Source: Tuwongella immobilis
GTDB taxonomy: Bacteria > Planctomycetota > Planctomycetia > Gemmatales > Gemmataceae
Direction: 5' to 3'
Length of the DNA: 64,000 nt
Assembly (NCBI RefSeq): GCF_901538355.1
Contig: NZ_LR593887.1
Location: 6,610,920-6,674,919, forward strand
Positions 16,982-51,063 of the stretch are shown one piece after another. The notes under the pieces were generated by a model. That model did not search any database. It was not told the origin of the DNA and saw only the letters and a list, made by a program, of their open reading frames with translations. Each line of letters begins with the position of its first letter. The first letter of the stretch is position 1. Position numbers and translations under genes: made by a program.

Positions 16982-17206
16982 CCCAACACCCCCCTCCCCA
17001 AATTCCACCATTATCCCCACTCCCCACTCAATATACCCACCCCTCCAACCCCCATCGAAAAATCCTGCCAATGGATGGAAATGGAAAGAGGAAGTCAGTG
17101 CGAGTGCGGGGCGGGGATGTGAGTGTGGGACGCTGTAGGTGGGAGTGTGGGATGTTGGGGGATGGCAGGGGCTCTGCCCCTGGACCCCGGCCAAGGGACT
17201 TGGAAG

Positions 17207-17344
17207 CCCCTTGGCGAACCCCGTCTTCGCTCCGGTCATTGATCGGGGCGATCGGTTGACTGCGTCACCCCGCTCACCCCGAAAAATGCTCGTCGCGGGG
17301 GCCACTTCTGGGGCTTGCTGGCGGGGATCTGTCGCTGGCTGACG
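17207..17344 (+). repeat. Left inverted-repeat arm of cassette A
   Basis: 138 bp, beginning CCCCTTGGCGAACCCCGTC and ending CGCTGGCTGACG. It matches the reverse complement of 18573-18710 and both arms of cassette B. It holds a 52-nt palindromic segment at 17237-17288, slightly degenerate here (cattgatcgggg against ccccgaaaaatg). Confidence 0.9.
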
Positions 17345-17539: not shown

Positions 17540-17654
17540 CGAATCTCGCGTTGATCGGGCTATTTGTGATTTCAAATTGAATTTTAGATGTGAGATGGGA
17601 CATATCCATTTGAATTGAATTGATAAGCTCCATCGATTTCCAATGGAGATGGAA

Positions 17655-18518
17655 ATGAATCGGCGAAATGGACTCACGCTCATCGAGCTTCTCGTCGTCT
17701 TGGCGATATTGGCCCTGTTGATTGGTCTGCTATTGCCTTCCGTTCAGAAAGTGCGAGAGGCAGCCGCGCGGATGCACTCCATGAACAATCTCAAGCAAAT
17801 CAACCTCGGTTTGCAACATTATCTCGCTTCACATTCCGGCAAAATTCCTGCGATCTATGCACAAACAGAACCGAACAAATTGAGTTCTCTCTGGTTTACA
17901 TTGATGCCGTATATTAACAATGGATCGATTTATCAGAGCTATCAGAACGATCCGGATCAGCTGGTGAAAGAATTCATTAGCCCGGCCGATCCAACGGTGC
18001 GACGCGTTTCTTGGAAGACTTATGTCCGTTCCGATGACTACCGCGGTGATTGTTCTTACGCGGCGAACGCCCAATGTTTTGGCTTCAACGTCGCGATCCA
18101 ACAGATAACCGATGGCACCTCACAAACCTTTTCGTTCGGCGAACGATATGCCACCTGTCGAGACATCGCTGTGAGTTGGGGCGTAACTCAAGGGGAAATG
18201 ATTTACGGCAGAATGCGGCGTGCAACGTTCGCTGATAATATGCTGTTCTTTCCGGACGGTTCCCCCGCAGGTGGTCAGGGAGATGCCTTTCCGAAGTTTA
18301 TGGGCACACCTCCGCGGCTTGGGTGCAGTCATGGCCCGTACACTTATCAACTGGCCCCAAGGCCAAGCGATTGCGAATTGTATTTGGCCCAAACTCCGCA
18401 CCCCGCCGGGATGCTCACGGCTATGTTTGATGGAAGTGTGCGAACCACCGCTCCGAACGTCTCGGAATTCGTCTTCTGGGCCACCGTCACTCCCGCCGGC
18501 GGCGAGATTTTGGAATAA
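17655..18518 (+). CDS. DUF1559 prepilin-like protein (cassette A)
   Basis: 287 residues from the ATG at 17655, which has GGAG 5 nt upstream; in-frame ATGs at 17643 and 17649 add only Met-Glu repeats. A type IV prepilin leader '[12 protein letters not shown]' with the conserved Glu at +5 precedes a hydrophobic helix, then '[11 protein letters not shown]...[13 protein letters not shown]', the planctomycete DUF1559 signature. The C-terminal part has a 'FDGSVRT' motif as in the SBP_bac_10/H-X9-DG segment. It is probably processed by prepilin peptidase and surface-displayed. Compared with the cassette B protein it is nearly identical except at residues about 72-81, 95-99 and 178-233 (numbered from 17643). 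The role is unknown. Confidence 0.9.
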
Positions 18519-18572: not shown

Positions 18573-18710
18573 CGTCAGCCAGCGACAGATCCCCGCCAGC
18601 AAGCCCCAGAAGTGGCCCCCGCGACGAGCATTTTTCGGGGTGAGCGGATTGACGCAGTCAACCGATCGCCCCGATAAATGACCGGAGCGAAGACGGGGTT
18701 CGCCAAGGGG
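18573..18710 (-). repeat. Right inverted-repeat arm of cassette A
   Basis: 138 bp, the reverse complement of 17207-17344 with three mismatches noted. It contains a 52-nt palindromic segment at 18629-18680. It lies between the DUF1559 stop and the 3' end of the HemW-like gene. Confidence 0.9.
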
Positions 18711-18835
18711 ACCACGTTCCCTTGGCCAGGGCGTGGGACAGCGTCCCACACCACCCAACATCCCACACCACTCACCCAGACAGCGTCCCACCCACACTCC
18801 CATCCAAACCGCCCAAACCACCTAAACCAGACCAA

Positions 18836-33803: not shown

Positions 33804-36800
33804 TTACGACGGCGGCGGTGCGGATGGGGGATTCCCACCGGTTGCGGTGCTTCCACCGAATCCGGCACTTCCAACCGAGGCGGGACTTCCATTCGTGGCG
33901 GAAGCCCAGGTCGGCGGGGTGGCGGCGGGTCCGGGATTCATGCCTGCGGAATGCGCGGGCGCGGAATCGGGCGTCGCTGCCTTGGGTTTGCCGCGAAATT
34001 GACGGGCGAACCATTGGCCCCAGCCATCGAGAATCGAGTATGCCACCGGCGTGACAATCAGCGTCAGCAGCAGCGAGAACGTCTGGCCGCCCAAAATCAC
34101 CTTGGCCATGCTGGCACGGCTGGCGGCACCTGGCCCTTCGGCGATCGCCATCGGCACCATCGCGGCGATCAGCATGACCGTCGTCATGAGAATCGGCCGC
34201 AAGCGCATGCGGTTGGCTTCCATGATGGCCGGCTCACGAGCCATGCCCGCCGCCCGCAATTGGTTCGCCGTGTCCACCTGCAAAATGCCGTTCTTTTTCA
34301 CGATGCCAAACAGCATGAACAGCCCCAACATGGCGTACAAATCCAGCATGGTTTGCATGGCCAATAGCGACAACAACGCACAGGGGATGGTCAGCGGCAG
34401 GGCGGACAGAATGCTCACCGGGTGCGAGAAACTCTCGAACTGCGCGGCAAGAATCATGTACATGAAGATGAACGCCAGCATGAAGCCCAACAGGAAGTTA
34501 TCGTTGGATTCCTGCATCATTTTGGCGTCGCCCAGGAATTCCGCTCGATACGCCGGGGGCAGATTGAGCGTCTTCACAAAGGCTTGCAGTTCCACGACGG
34601 CTTCGCTAAGCCCCTTGCCTTGCAGGTTGGCGTTGACGACGATTTGCCGTTGGCGGCGGAAGCGGTTGATGCTGCTGGGGCCGATCGCCTCGGTCAGCGT
34701 GGCGATGCTGTCCAATCGCACGGCGTGATCCGGGGCAGTGGAAGCGGGCACCCCCATGCGGCCGATCACGTCCGTTTCGCCCCGCGCCCATTCTTCGGCT
34801 CGCAGCCAAATGTCGATTTGCTCGTCGCCGTCTTTGTATTTGCTCACCGGTTCGCCGCCGACGAGAATGCTCGTGGTGGTGGCGAGGCTGGCCAGCGAGA
34901 CGCCGAGATCCGACAGCCGCTCCCGATCGGGAATCACCCGCAATTCCGGCTTGCGCTGCGACAAGCTCGTATCAATATCGATGTAGCCCGGCGTTTGCTT
35001 CATATACTCGACAATCTTCTGACTGACGACTTCGAGTTCCTTCATATCCGGGCCGCTGAGATTCAGATCGATATCGACTTGTTTGAACCCCGCCGCTTGA
35101 ATGGCTTCCGCGGCTTGCACGGTGGAGCGCAAATCGGGGTAATCCGCCATAATCACGCGGGCCTGTTCCATCACGTCGAACTGACTGTAATTGCGTCGGT
35201 CCAGCGGCAGAATTCGGCAATAGATGGTCAGCTTGGTCACTTCGCCGCGTGCTTTGGTGACATTCGCCGTCGTATCGCCGATGATGGCATACGTGAGCTG
35301 CAATCCGGGTAGCATGCGCAATCGCCGCTCGATGTCTGCGGTAATGGCGTCTGCGCGCTGCAGCGAGGTATCTTCCGGCAGGGTCGCCACGATTTCGAAT
35401 TCGTTCTGATCGTCCTTGGGCACGAAGTTGCTGCCAACCAGCCCCGCAATCATCGGCGTGGAGAACAGAAACAGCACACTGCCCAGCACGACCAGCCAGC
35501 GATGCCGCAGCGACCAGCCGAGAATCGCCAGATACGAATTTTCGATCGTTCGCCAAATGAAGCTATCTTTGGTATTGTGCCCCTCGATTGGCTTGAGAAA
35601 CCGCGAACAGAGCATCGGCGTGAGCGTGAATGACACCGCCAAGGACAGCATGACCGCGAAGCCCACCACCCAACCGAAGCACGAAAGGAACCGGCCCACC
35701 GTTCCGCCCATGAAGGCGATTGGCGCGAAAATCACCACCAGCGACAACGTGGTTGCCGTCACCGCCAGGGCGATTTCTCGGGTGGCGCTGGCAGCGGCCT
35801 CCCATGCGGAAAGCCCCTTTTCTTCCATGTGACGGAAGATATTCTCGTGAACCACGACCGCGTCATCGACCACGATTCCGACTGCGAGAATCAGGCCGAG
35901 CATGGTCATGCTGTTGATGCTGAACCCCATGCCGTACATCAGCGCGAAGGTGCCGACAATCGATGTGGGAATCGACAGCGTCGCAATGATGGTGGTGCGC
36001 CAATCACGCAGAAACAGCAGAATCGACAGGCTCACCAGCACGGCCGCCAGCAACAGGTGCGTTTTCACTTCGTCCAAGCTGGCTTCCACGAAGCGGGCCT
36101 GATCGCGAATCACTTCCGCACGCAGGTCCGGCGGCAATCCCGGCAGCAATCGCTCGAGCTCTGCTTTGATCGCATGCGACACCGCGACGGTATTCGCTCC
36201 CGATTGCTTCTGAATAATCAGGCTGATCGCATTTTCGCCGGGTTCTTCCAGATTGGTATCATCGGCGTTGCGGACCCAAAGTCGGCTGACGCTGCGCGGT
36301 TCTTCGACCGTGTCTTCGACGCGGCCAATTTCCTCCAGGCGAATCGGCGTGTTATTGCGATTGCAGACAATCAGCTTTTCCAACTCGCGGGGTTCTTCCA
36401 CTCGGCCCAGGGTGCGCAGGCCGCGCTCCGAGATGCCGCGTGTCACCCGCCCACCGGGAAGTTCCTGATTCTCCCGCACCAGCGCCATGCGGATATCTTC
36501 CACGGTCAGATCGGGATATTTGAACATGCGCTCGGGGTCGAGATAGATCTGCACCGCGCGCTGTCGGCCACCCACCATGGCTACGGTGCCAACGCCGGGC
36601 AGCGTCTCAATCACTTCTTTGATCTGCTTTTTGGTGATTTCCGTCATTTCGCGGAAATCGCGTTTTCCGGAGATGGCCACCGTCATCACCGGAATCGCAT
36701 CCATGGCGATCTTGTTGATGATCGGCGTATCCACCCCTTCGGGTAATTGATTCAAAATCGTGCGGATTTTGGAATCAATTTCCTGGGCACCCACGTCTCC

Positions 36801-43315: not shown

Positions 43316-43454
43316 ATCTTATCCAGAGTGGTCGAGGGCTTGGGCCCGATGAAGCCACAGCAACCGGTTCGCCGGGATGGATTCCCAATCCGTTCCTCGA
43401 ATGCAGGTGCTAATTCCCTCCGATCGGGTGACAACCCCATCGGGAAGATAAGAT
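43316..43454 (+). ncRNA. SAM-I (S-box) riboswitch
   Basis: The P1 stem is atcttatc (43316-43323) with gataagat (43447-43454). Inside are the hallmark S-box segments in order: ccagagtgg with gagggc, gggcccgatgaagcc (43342-43355), gcaacc (43360-43365), then aggtgctaattcc (43405-43417). These match the SAM-I consensus core that binds S-adenosylmethionine. It lies on the strand of the threonine-synthase-like gene, 158 nt before its start. High SAM would be expected to lower expression. Confidence 0.9.
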
Positions 43455-46874: not shown

Positions 46875-48017
46875 ATGACGATTTACTTGGATAACGCCGC
46901 CACCAGTTTCCCCAAACCGGAGAGTGTCTACCGGGCGATGGACCAATTCGCCCGGACCAGCCTCGCCAACCCCGGACGCTCGGGGCACAAAATGGCATTG
47001 GCGTCCGAACATGCGTTGGATAACGCCCGGCACCGCCTCAACCAGCACTTTCACGGCAAAGGCCCCGATCGGTTTATCTTCACGCTCAACGGGACCGATG
47101 CCCTGAATCTCGCCATCAAAGGGCTGCTCAACCCCGGCGATCATGTCATCACCAGCGAATTGGAGCATAACTCCGTCAGCCGCCCCCTGCGCGGCCTCGA
47201 AAAAGCGGGTGTCATTTCGCTCACCAAAGTCACCGCCGATGACACCGGCACCATCTCGCCCGATGATGTCCGCGACGCCATCACCCCCAAAACTCGACTG
47301 ATCGCGCTCACCCACGCCAGCAACGTCCTGGGCACCGTTCAGCCGATCGAAGAAATCGGGAAAATCGCCCGCGAACACAACATTGTCTTCCTCGTCGATG
47401 CTGCCCAAACTGCCGGCGTGCTCCCCATCGATGTGCAAGCACTCCACATCGACCTACTCGCCTTCCCCGGACATAAATCGCTCATGGGCCCCACCGGCAC
47501 CGGTGCGCTCTACGTCGCCCCCGGAATCACGCTCCGCCCCTGGCGCGAAGGCGGCACCGGCGGCGATTCCGTCAGCGAAGTCAACCCCACCGAAATGCCC
47601 TTCCACCTCGAAGGCGGAACCCCCAACGTCGTCGGTCTCGTTGGACTCACCGCCGGCATCGACTACGTCGAACAACGCGGACTCCACACCATCCACCAAC
47701 ACGAAGTCGATCTCGTCGAACGACTCTGGAAAGCACTCGACCAAATCCCCGCCATCCAAGTCTTCGGACACCGCAACCACGCCAAACGCGTCGGTACCCT
47801 CAGCTTCCGAAGCGAACTCCTTCCCGCCAACGAACTCGGCGGCGTCCTCGACGAAGCCTTCACCATCGCCATCCGGCCCGGACTCCATTGCGCCCCCTTC
47901 GTCCATCGCGGCCAAGGCTCCTTCCCCGAAGGCACCATCCGAGTCAGCCCCGGCGCATTCAATACCGAAGCCGATATCGATACCCTCGCCCAAGCCCTCA
48001 CCGAAATCCATAGCTAA
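46875..48017 (+). CDS. Cysteine desulfurase (NifS/SufS-like, class V aminotransferase)
   Basis: 380 residues. A PLP enzyme that releases sulfur from cysteine as a persulfide. It begins 'IYLDNAATSFPKP' and has 'ELEHNS' (about 96), 'THASNVLGTVQPIEEI' (about 146), 'VDAAQTAGVLPIDV' and the PLP lysine in 'FPGHKSLMGPTGTG' (Lys 201). A likely persulfide-bearing Cys is in 'RPGLHCAPFVHRGQG'. It lies 54 bp after the E1-like gene and closes the sulfur-carrier set, supplying the sulfur. Cassette B begins about 30 bp after its stop. Confidence 0.93.
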   Translation: MTIYLDNAATSFPKPESVYRAMDQFARTSLANPGRSGHKMALASEHALDNARHRLNQHFHGKGPDRFIFTLNGTDALNLAIKGLLNPGDHVITSELEHNSVSRPLRGLEKAGVISLTKVTADDTGTISPDDVRDAITPKTRLIALTHASNVLGTVQPIEEIGKIAREHNIVFLVDAAQTAGVLPIDVQALHIDLLAFPGHKSLMGPTGTGALYVAPGITLRPWREGGTGGDSVSEVNPTEMPFHLEGGTPNVVGLVGLTAGIDYVEQRGLHTIHQHEVDLVERLWKALDQIPAIQVFGHRNHAKRVGTLSFRSELLPANELGGVLDEAFTIAIRPGLHCAPFVHRGQGSFPEGTIRVSPGAFNTEADIDTLAQALTEIHS

Positions 48018-48048
48018 CCCCCTCTTTTCAGGAGTGTGGCTTGGGTGG

Positions 48049-48272
48049 GAGTGAGTGTGGGACGCTGGGTGGTAGGGGACGCTGTTGGTGGAGTGTGGGA
48101 CGCTGTCCCACGCCCTGTCCAAGGGACTTGGAAGCCCCTTGGCGAACCCCGTCTTCGCTCCGGTCATTTATCGGGGCGATCGGTTGACTGCGTCAATCCG
48201 CTCACCCCGATAAATGCTCGTCGCGGGGGCCACGTCTGGGGCTTGCTGGTGGGGATCTGTCGCTGGCTGACG
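48049..48272 (+). repeat. Left inverted-repeat arm of cassette B
   Basis: About 224 bp; the conserved 138-bp core is 48135-48272. It contains a perfect 12-bp palindrome, CATTTATCGGGG (48165-48176) with CCCCGATAAATG (48205-48216), and inside it a second stem CGGTTGAC/GTCAATCCG (48181-48188, 48192-48200). The outer part includes GGGACGCTGTCCC-like self-complementary motifs. Confidence 0.9.
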
Positions 48273-48579
48273 CCCCTTTTTGGGGACTTCTCAGCCGACT
48301 TGGCGAGGTCGCGGATTGAGTGCTGCCAACTTCGTTCGTCGGCAGCTTTCGCTCGATTTTGTTATACATATCAGCATGCGTCAACTTACATAACAACTCG
48401 TCGAATGAAACACTCAAAAAAAAGCACTTTAACGATTGCAATCGCAGGTCATCTGGATTATTCTCGAATCTCGCGTTGATCGGGCTATTTGTGATTTCAA
48501 ATTGAATTTTAGATGTGAGATGGGACATATCCATTTGAATTGAATTGATAAGCTCCATCGATTTCCAATGGAGATGGAA

Positions 48580-49443
48580 ATGAATCGGCGAAATGGACTC
48601 ACCCTCATCGAGCTTCTCGTCGTCTTGGCGATCTTGGCCCTCTTGATTGGCCTGCTATTGCCATCCGTTCAGAAAGTGCGAGAAGCAGCCGCGCGAATGC
48701 ACTCCATGAACAATCTCAAGCAAATCAACCTCGGTTTGCAGCATTATCTCACCTCACATTCTGGCAAAATCCCTGCGATCTTTGAACAAACTGCTCCATT
48801 TACCGCCCATTCCCTTTGGTTCACATTGATGCCGTATATTAACAATGGAACGACTTATCATGTCTATCAGAATGATCCGGATCAGCTGGTGAAAGAATTC
48901 ATTAGCCCGGCCGATCCAACGGTGCGACGCGTTTCTTGGAAGACTTATGTCCGTTCCGATGACTATCGCGGTGATTGTTCCTACGCGGCGAATGCCCAAT
49001 GTTTTGGCTTCAACGTCGCGATCCAACAGATGACCGATGGCACATCACAAACCTTTTCGTTCGGCGAACGATATGCCACCTGTCGAGACATCGCCGTATA
49101 TTGGGGCATTCATCGAGGAAGCATCATTCTTTCAAACGATCGCAGTGCAACATTTGCAGATAACAAAATTCGTTATCCCGATGGTTCCATCACCGGTGGC
49201 CAGGGCGACGCCTATCCGATGATGAAAGGCACGCCTCCGCGACTTGGGTGCAGCCACGGCGCGCACACCTATCAACTGGCCCCAAGGCCGAGCGATTGCG
49301 AATATTACTTGGCCCAAACTCCGCACCCCGCCGGGATGCTCACGGCTATGTTTGATGGAAGTGTGCGAACTACCGCGCCCAACGTCTCGGAATTCGTCTT
49401 CTGGGCCACTGTCACTCCCGCCGGCGGCGAAATTTTGGAATAA
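48580..49443 (+). CDS. DUF1559 prepilin-like protein (cassette B)
   Basis: 287 residues from the ATG at 48580, chosen as in copy A (GGAG 5 nt upstream). The prepilin leader '[12 protein letters not shown]', long helix and '[16 protein letters not shown]' are the same as in copy A. Over residues 100-177 I count a single difference from copy A, but over 178-233 about 23 of 56 differ, and a smaller patch lies at 72-81. Several changes are physicochemically radical (Met/Asp, Phe/Arg, Met/Lys). It is probably a surface or pseudopilus-like protein with a variable exposed face. Confidence 0.9.
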
Positions 49444-49498
49444 CCCACCGCATCCCAATCAACACCCGCATCCCCGCGCAGAAGCCCAGCGCAGGGAG

Positions 49499-49723
49499 CG
49501 TCAGCCAGCGATAGTCCGCCGCGAGCAACCCCAGAAGTGGCCCCCGCGACGAGCATTTATCGGGGTGAGCGGATTGACGCAGTCAGCCGATCGCCCCGAT
49601 AAATGACCGGAGCGAAGACGGGGTTCGCCAAGGGGACGCCGTTCCCTTGGCCAGGGCGTGGGACAGCGTCCCACACTCACACCCAGACAGCGTCCCCTAC
49701 CACCCAGCGTCCCACACTCACTC
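49499..49723 (-). repeat. Right inverted-repeat arm of cassette B
   Basis: Reverse complement of 48049-48272. Its 52-nt palindrome lies at 49554-49605 (catttatcgggg with ccccgataaatg). The outermost bases, cagcgtcccctaccacccagc and on, mirror 48049-48085 exactly over about 36 bp. Confidence 0.88.
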
Positions 49724-49779
49724 ACCGACCGCACTCACTCACCGAGTCCTGCACAGTCACCGCCACAGTCGCAAGATCA

Positions 49780-51063
49780 TCACATTGACGACTGGGGTTC
49801 GGTTGGGTGGGGTGGGTTTTGGAGGAGGAAGCGGCGGAGGGTGGGGTCTTGGGTGAGTCCGAGGGCGGTTTTGTGGGCGGCGAGGGCAGCATCGGGTTGG
49901 CCGAGTTGGTGAAGCCAGTGGGCGGCGGTGACCCAGTAGGGTTGATAATCGCGGACGGAGTCTGGGGGGATGGATTGCCAGGCGAGCCACCAGGCTTGCG
50001 GTCCGTAGGCTTTGCCGATGGCAGCAGCGCGATTGACCAGTGCGCCGAGAGTTGGTGAGAAGCGGACGAGTCCTTCATAGAGGAGGACGATGGCAGGCCA
50101 GTTGGGGATTCCGAGTTGGAGTCGTTGGATGTGGGCGGATTGGATCGCGGCTTCGATTTGGAAGCGACCGGGTTGGTTGGCGGTGCTGGCGGTGAAGAGA
50201 TGCTGCTCGGCGGCGGCAATTTGTGCGGTGTCCCACTGGTGACAATTTTGCGAATCGAGTGGAACGTAATTGCCGTTGGCATCTCGGCGGGCGGATCGGC
50301 GAGCGTGGCTGAACTGCATGAGTGCGAGCAGCCCGCGGGATTCAGGCTGATTGGGGAGCAGGTCCACGACGGTTTGTCCCAGCCAGATTGCCTCCTCGGC
50401 GAGACTTGCGGACTGGGGGTCGGCACCGTCGATGGCATCCCAGCCGGTTCCATACGCGGCATAGATGGCATCGAGTACCGATTCGAGTCGATTGGGCAAT
50501 TCGTCGGGTTCGGGCAATTCGAAGGAGATGCCCGTGTCGCGGATTTTCGTTTTGGCTCGAACGAGTCGTTGCGACATGGTCGCGGGGCTAACGAGGAACG
50601 CGGAGGCGATTCGCTCGGCATCCAATCCCAGGACGGTTTGCAACAACAGCGGTGTACGAGCGAGGGGATCAATGGCGGGGTGAGAGCAGGTGAACAGCAG
50701 TTGCAAGCGTTCATCGGCAAGGAATGTCGTTTCGGGGGTTTCGCGCTGCGGAATCGACTCATCCAGATAGGACGTGAGGGATTCCAATCGGGCGGCCCGA
50801 CGGGTCAGATCGATCAATCGGCGGCGTGCCGTGGTCAGCAACCATGCTTCGGGAGAGCGGGGAATTCCGTGGATGGGCCAGGATTCCAGGGCCGCCAAGA
50901 ATGCCTCGGAGAGGGCATCCTCAGCGGCCATTAGATCATGCGTGCGGTTGGCGACGAACGCAATCAGACGACCGTAGGAGAATCGAGCCATTTGCTCGGC
51001 GATTCGCCGCGCTTCCAGGTCGCTGGTTGGTGACGTGGCCATCTCTCCACACGCCTCACGCAT
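49780..51063 (-). CDS. ECF42-like RNA polymerase sigma factor with C-terminal TPR-like domain
   Basis: 427 residues (an ATG at 51042 would give 420). The sigma2 region is at about 25-90 ('RLIAFVANRTHDLMAAEDALSEAFLAALESWP...PEAWLLTTARRRLIDLTRR') and the sigma4 region at about 125-180 ('LLLQTVLGLDAERIASAFLVSPATMSQRLVRAK'). A long helical C-terminal extension ('AIYAAYGTGWDAIDG...LGLLALMQFSHARRSAR') is characteristic of the ECF42/DUF6596 group, which has no classic anti-sigma factor. The gene lies 16 bp after a DGPF/YCII protein gene, the standard partner of this group. Family members control oxidative or antibiotic stress genes in some bacteria. Confidence 0.9.
   Translation of the reverse strand: MREACGEMATSPTSDLEARRIAEQMARFSYGRLIAFVANRTHDLMAAEDALSEAFLAALESWPIHGIPRSPEAWLLTTARRRLIDLTRRAARLESLTSYLDESIPQRETPETTFLADERLQLLFTCSHPAIDPLARTPLLLQTVLGLDAERIASAFLVSPATMSQRLVRAKTKIRDTGISFELPEPDELPNRLESVLDAIYAAYGTGWDAIDGADPQSASLAEEAIWLGQTVVDLLPNQPESRGLLALMQFSHARRSARRDANGNYVPLDSQNCHQWDTAQIAAAEQHLFTASTANQPGRFQIEAAIQSAHIQRLQLGIPNWPAIVLLYEGLVRFSPTLGALVNRAAAIGKAYGPQAWWLAWQSIPPDSVRDYQPYWVTAAHWLHQLGQPDAALAAHKTALGLTQDPTLRRFLLQNPPHPTEPQSSM

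Follow-up and report, generated by a model that had tools for sequence, protein, structure and literature searches.

A family of REP/BIME-like foldback elements with four-hairpin arms in the Tuwongella immobilis genome

Results

Two elements with inverted arms around related DUF1559 genes

The window, a stretch of 64,000 nt of the Tuwongella immobilis genome, contains two elements in which a pair of inverted arms encloses a gene for a DUF1559 protein. In the element at 48 kb, the left arm (+ strand) begins with a tail of degenerate tandem H1-like units (48049..48091), the first 37 nt of which (48049-48085) are 100% complementary to 49687-49723. The tail is followed by hairpin H1 (48095..48111; GTGGGAC-GCT-GTCCCAC, with the exact motif at 48095), by H2 (48119..48142; CCAAGGG...CCCCTTGG) and by a 52-nt hairpin, H3 of type A (48165..48216), the latter two recognized from sequence and fold. 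An H4 region together with the inner end of the arm (48260..48318; GGCTGACGCCCC...CTCAGCC ... CGCGGATTG) was placed by alignment, with limits set by eye. The enclosed gene (48568..49443, + strand) encodes a DUF1559 (SBP_bac_10) protein with an N-terminal methylation motif (Pfam PF07596 and PF07963) and is one of three close copies. On the - strand, the right arm comprises H3 of type A (49554..49605), H2 (49628..49650) and H1 with the exact motif (49658..49674), all located from the sequence, and a tail (49675..49723) identified by its complementarity to the left tail.

The element at 17 kb was mapped from its sequence. Its left arm (+ strand) consists of a tail with an H1 of the CAGGGGCTCTGCCCCTG type (17121..17180, limits approximate), H2 (17191..17214) and an H3 of type A with two mismatches in the outer stem (17237..17288). 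The second DUF1559 copy follows (17643..18518, + strand; PF07596 and PF07963), 87% identical to the copy at 48 kb, and then the right arm (- strand) with an H3 of type A containing one mismatch (18629..18680), H2 (18703..18725) and H1 with the exact motif (18733..18749). An Rfam scan of the window at gathering scores reported only a SAM riboswitch (43316-43454, + strand, 71 bits), which lies outside the elements. Four element loci searched down to E 1 gave mir-5615 over an H3 (26 bits, gathering score 82) and a trypanosomatid snoRNA outside the element (24 bits, gathering score 50); with no Rfam match at gathering scores, a known RNA family was rejected as the identity of the repeat. An odd tRNA-like ARAGORN match with a two-base anticodon at 34613-34703 is probably spurious.

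The 52-nt hairpin is the third of a four-hairpin arm

The original prediction had placed a nested 52-nt palindrome at four positions of the window, and we found the hairpin at all four of them (17237-17288, 18629-18680, 48165-48216 and 49554-49605). Its outer 12-bp stem, CATTTATCGGGG/CCCCGATAAATG, has no mismatch in either arm at 48 kb, one at 18629 and two at 17237, and on re-reading the sequence the inner second stem was as described. The proposed folding as single-stranded DNA was carried out on 48165-48216 alone and gave -17.8 kcal/mol (z -6.3), a value that none of 200 shuffles equaled. A plain mirror count of the four 52-mers yields 16, 18, 19 and 19 of 26 pairs, compared with a best count of 16-18 in ten first-order Markov sequences, each of the length of the window; this count is weak evidence because a bulged stem differs from a plain mirror palindrome. 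What had been overlooked are the further arm hairpins H1, H2 and H4, about 40 places in the genome where such arms occur and the fact that two arms make up one foldback element. Among the four hairpins of an arm, the 52-mer is the third (H3).

The arms form a dispersed family in this genome

A 321-nt arm query gave 45 blastn matches in the 6.69-Mb single-contig genome. A covariance model, R1, was built from 33 arms (34 rows minus two second readings of known places, plus the left arm at 17 kb) and reported 70 genome places at E 0.01, about 40 of which (41 by count) are arms in the sense orientation, some of them truncated; the remaining places are the same hairpins read on the opposite strand. 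In total, 22 loci were distinguished, comprising 14 loci with inverted pairs and eight places with solo or truncated arms, besides a few tandem extra arms; the weak places 5536719 and 675161 were left out. Two very similar truncated type B-like arms that share an unusual flank lie 1.7 kb apart (locus L068, 2001-2201 and 3681-3831) and perhaps reflect a local duplication. The exact sequence GTGGGACGCTGTC occurs 35 times in the genome, always at arms and always pointing inward, and a reversed control pattern is absent; we take this confinement as support for defined element ends.

No relatives were detected elsewhere. Model R1 had no match in the 94 other genomes of the family, compared with 40 here (strict filters, 40 candidates scored per genome), and blastn had none in the same genomes (at most seven candidates scored per genome). 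An exact 21-mer from the arm was absent from genome_contigs (84,980 species) and from viral_contigs, and an H2-based pattern was absent from genome_contigs, with the proviso that exact patterns miss diverged copies. One whole element searched by blastn had no match among plasmids and phages. Database-wide repeat searches of this kind may exclude the record of the genome itself. Within the open-licence literature, we found no published account of this repeat family.

Element architecture and cargo

From its outer end, an arm consists of a tail, usually of tandem H1-like units, followed by H1, H2, H3, H4 and an inner end near CGCGGATTG. H1 takes the form GTGGGAC-GCT-GTCCCAC or CAGGGGC-TCT-GCCCCTG, and H4 and the inner end vary among copies. 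H1 is on the outer side in the inverted pairs of all 14 loci. Nine of these pairs are simple elements (E15, E49, E163, E174, E247, E357, E964, E5244 and E6539, named by genome position in kb) of 552-624 nt from H1 to H1, in which an arm, a core and an inverted arm follow one another. The cores are held in common: among the matches listed, at least 28 of 36 pairs of simple elements align collinearly over 592-853 nt, with 71-82% identity. The fold of E49 (-450.6 kcal/mol; z -27.9 against 20 shuffles) is a single giant hairpin from which the two H3s branch off as side hairpins at a four-way junction. When the nine simple elements were aligned, 200 consensus pairs emerged, 35 of them changed on both sides, with a covariation term of only -0.81 kcal/mol. 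The long arm-to-arm duplex thus has little net covariation, and the signal sits in the local hairpins.

The other five pairs hold extra inner sequence. Three carry the DUF1559 copies, at 17 kb and 48 kb of the window and at 6457 kb of the genome; these composites share 89-92% identity over about 1.6-1.7 kb, and their outer flanks do not match one another. The DUF1559 protein has 102 matches in the genome, of which the top three (87-100% identity) are the foldback copies and the others reach 72% or less. Given that copies elsewhere are 71-82% identical, the DUF1559 composites are perhaps a sign of recent activity. The locus at 6190 kb contains a WG-repeat ORF between its arms (L077, 2939-3973) with a third-position GC of 0.39, compared with 0.67-0.70 in the flanking genes, and this ORF was possibly acquired from elsewhere. 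In the fifth locus, at 4273 kb, an inner, partly truncated pair is nested in an outer pair, both arms of which align as identical.

The cargo might have moved without a transposase, DUF1559 having been copied into existing elements by homologous recombination or gene conversion between resident arms. The H1 type and the tail of the left arm vary among the three composites, whose inner parts are close, as such an exchange would predict. In addition, the two arms of one simple element resemble each other in their outer parts slightly more than arms of different simple elements do (0.867 vs 0.823, permutation P 0.03), and the core side and the H3 type appear by eye to be swapped in two simple elements, E15 and E6539, compared with the remaining seven. 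The outer-arm test on the five composites shows nothing, however (P 0.63), and the tails do not differ significantly within and between elements (P 0.10), so that concerted evolution between the tails of an element was rejected. The scenario of recombination between arms also leaves the first dispersal of the nine simple elements unexplained, and we consider it quite unlikely.

Most elements reside at gene 3' ends and near the contig start

Neighboring genes were assigned by ORF and Pfam match, relative to approximate element limits drawn by hand. A Pfam match above the cut-off supports 25 of the 28 flanks of the 14 pairs, the exceptions being the left of E163, the right of E357 and the right of E4273. 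Among these 25 flanking genes, 23 have their 3' end on the side of the element; the other two, at E15 and E17k, face it with their start, and these two loci do not lie between convergent genes. Where both sides have Pfam support, neighbors are convergent at 9 of 11 loci (P 1.3e-4 for an expected proportion of one quarter, which was assumed for this genome). To the left of the 6190-kb locus, the gene with Pfam support ends at a distance of 380 nt, and an ORF of 101 amino acids that lacks such support lies in between. A gene 3' end is also found at the H1 side of all four Pfam-supported arms (4397, 1683, 900 and 6049 kb) among the eight solo or truncated places. A phage portal protein gene (L063, 2912-4285) ends towards the 163-kb element and may belong to a prophage remnant.

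Genes dnaA and dnaN are at the contig start, and 17 of the 22 loci lie within 1.05 Mb of it, where 6.9 would be expected. As a control, 33 of 95 other DUF1559 matches are within the same distance (29.8 expected). These 95 are 98 of the 102 matches less the three composites; the four rows dropped were weak, and three of them were further stretches of genes already listed.

Hairpin types, pairing and strand

H3 occurs as type A (52-53 nt, 20 arms), type B (49 nt, nine arms) and type C (48 nt, four arms), whose stems differ between the same flanks. Type A is paired with B or C in ten of ten cases formed by the nine simple elements and the WG locus; pairs of A with A are those of the three DUF1559 composites and the outer pair at 4273 kb. 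If types were dealt at random, the probability of all ten pairs being mixed would be 0.0055, a value that is only indicative because the arms share descent.

Pairing in H3 is maintained through sequence change. Percentage paired, cells changed on both sides and covariation score all exceeded those of all 500 shuffles and of slid controls; cells changed on both sides numbered 57, where shuffles gave 17.4 and slid controls no more than 8. Two of the five covariation measures stayed at about the level of the shuffles or below (pairs with two-sided change, 6 vs 5.7; further pair types, 10 vs 11.2), and one named H3 pair is unpaired in 29 of 30 rows. In H2, all nine loop variants retain both end pairs, one of them via a T-G pair.

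Read inward, most mismatches in H2 and H3 are A-C; read outward from the core, they are hence G-T. At the outward H3 stem positions, 11 have G-T, one has A-C and seven have other mismatches. With RNA parameters, the outward strand gives the more stable H3 in 32 of 33 arms, and with DNA parameters in 33 of 33; for H2 it does so in 32 of 33. This is a clear trend rather than a measured probability because the arms are related and the outward reference structure favors this result. Type C hairpins have one or two G-U pairs on the inward strand too. The better fold and the G-T pairs of the outward strand point to folding by a single strand, RNA or DNA alike, so that the active form of the hairpins is probably RNA or single-stranded DNA. 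Elements at gene 3' ends may thus act as strand-specific hairpins.

The flanks of H3 are of the ordinary kind in 31 of the 33 arms; both exceptions are in the copy at 6457 kb. In one of its arms, the left flank is the reverse complement of the right flank at 9 of 9 bases. In the other arm, the right flank matches the reverse complement of the left at 7 of 9, a weaker case because two ordinary arms reach 6 of 9. Hairpin-templated repair predicts flank copying of this kind, as well as multi-base changes that restore perfect stems, according to PMC8794818. Two template-switching events at H3 are likely from these flanks, and such repair can yield compensated stems without selection.

Location at 3' ends, strand-specific stability with G-U pairs and maintained pairing are also what would be expected if the arms were mainly bidirectional 3'-end RNA hairpins of the host (terminator, transcription insulator or mRNA stabilizer) under selection for RNA structure, with duplication as a by-product. 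We consider this explanation unlikely, though it deserves consideration. In a paired locus, readthrough from a flanking gene reads the outward strand in the far arm only, and the unrelated flanks favor dispersal. A consensus terminator scan of 47900-49900 gave three sites, compared with 2.4 in shuffles, and none at H1-H3, so that a classic intrinsic terminator was rejected for these hairpins of the 48-kb element. Moreover, no relative was found outside this genome that would show conservation over time.

Search for a mover

The original prediction had named an HUH/Y1 enzyme as a possible mobilizer, by which a RAYT-like single-strand transposase would recognize the hairpins and move the unit in trans. 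Strand-specific hairpins, inverted dimers and residence at 3' ends are REP-like features that would suit it, and PMC3733652 describes families with long terminal inverted repeats and tyrosine transposases. In this genome, however, neither the Y1 model PF01797 (which matches 5 of 14 control genomes) nor the RAYT model NF047646 (6 of 14 controls, one over the cut-off) has a match, whereas 79 of the 95 family genomes contain PF01797. A Y1/RAYT enzyme was rejected as the resident mover on these grounds. The repeat itself was detected in none of the other 94 family genomes, and neither GTAG nor CTAC occurs in the one arm checked, the 248-nt left arm at 48 kb. No Y1 gene was found in the genome for the repeats to flank, and the absence of an encoded Y1 enzyme, named in the prediction itself as evidence against it, is what the Y1 and RAYT models returned for a resident enzyme. 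The genome is given as 96.35% complete, so that a gene could have been missed, though it is a single contig. A resident enzyme of this kind is largely refuted, and mobilization by Y1/HUH is very improbable overall.

PF04986 (Y2, IS91-type) had no match here, its control being silent as well, and no transposase was identified among the cargo ORFs examined in paired loci. Loss of SbcCD as the reason for tolerance of long palindromes was rejected as to SbcD, since two SbcD-like genes are present. Flanks were read by eye for target-site duplications and none was established. The tails are tandem arrays and blur the element ends, and for this reason we infer transposition from the unrelated flanks.

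Discussion

We regard it as moderately probable that the 52-mer is H3 of a non-autonomous foldback family, detected in this genome alone, whose members behave like REP/BIME elements of unusual size. A unit of 0.55-0.62 kb, with arms of H1-H4 and usually an H1-like tandem tail, would have been copied to many places. The copies now lie mainly at the 3' ends of genes, as a rule where two convergent genes meet, and some enclose a gene (DUF1559 in three cases, a WG-repeat ORF in one). As no Y1/RAYT enzyme was found, the mover would be another enzyme acting in trans, an enzyme that the genome no longer has, or else arm-to-arm recombination. The stems would be kept paired during sequence change with the help of template switching at the hairpins.

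A further reading treats the elements as large, symmetric, strand-specific RNA 3'-end devices, in which the arms would be selected to fold when transcribed outward and the two arms would deliver different hairpins. Recombination between arms, together with template switching, would have spread such devices among convergent gene junctions around the replication origin, with no transposase involved and with genes such as DUF1559 taken along. We hold this to be decidedly unlikely.

Among known elements, MITEs and foldback transposons are non-autonomous and have long inverted repeats, a variable center, cargo and tandem subrepeats at their ends. The family described here has that architecture, with long terminal inverted repeats, dispersed copies and, in the cargo ORFs examined, no transposase. 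It differs in its marked 3'-end position, and the flanks read by eye did not establish a target duplication.

RAYT/TIRYT elements (REPtrons and TIRtrons) likewise have long inverted repeats, some of them self-complementary, around a gene (PMC3733652). By the models we used, there is no tyrosine transposase between the arms or genome-wide in T. immobilis, and the foldback family is not a member of the RAYT systems. The RNA hairpins attributed to template switching in PMC8794818 share multi-base changes that restore perfect stems; here we have a dispersed repeat, no known RNA gene and two likely events only.

The likeness to REPs and BIMEs that had been proposed stands as a resemblance (inverted dimers, hetero-dimers, 3'-end location and G-T stem pairs) and fails as membership. 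According to PMC3733652, REPs are 20-40 bp long with a terminal unpaired GTAG or CGTC tag, occur as inverted pairs, often hetero-dimers, in intergenic positions next to gene 3' ends and often between convergent genes, and have stems that vary with pairing kept and include G-T pairs. The 14 inverted pairs and the 3'-end orientation of nearly all supported flanks fit this description. REPs of the CGTC type have a terminal CGTC (or TGTC/CCTC), an 8-9 bp stem starting with AT pairs and a loop of 4-5, and they are likewise without a known transposase (PMC3733652). In the arms studied here, CGTC is present in 23 of 33 and CCTC in 9 of 33, two bases off the stem and on the 3' side of H3 only, and the stem length, the first pairs and the mostly 3-nt loop are unlike those of CGTC REPs. 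The H3 hairpins measure 48-53 nt within a four-hairpin arm of about 235 nt, and the unit is a 0.6-kb foldback; on size and on the GTAG tag, the family is not a member of the REPs.

For the prevalence of hetero-dimers among REPs, PMC3733652 sees no obvious explanation. The origin-centered distribution provides a further handle on the family, and its elements make it possible to test whether a hairpin at the ends of convergent genes works on a single strand, and whether in the form of RNA or of DNA. A host without a detectable Y1 enzyme amid relatives that mostly have one also allows a test of the need for a tyrosine transposase in REP-like spread. The REP-type repeats known so far are very small, at 20-40 bp, and the arms of this family, at about 235 nt, come with three hairpin types and carry genes.
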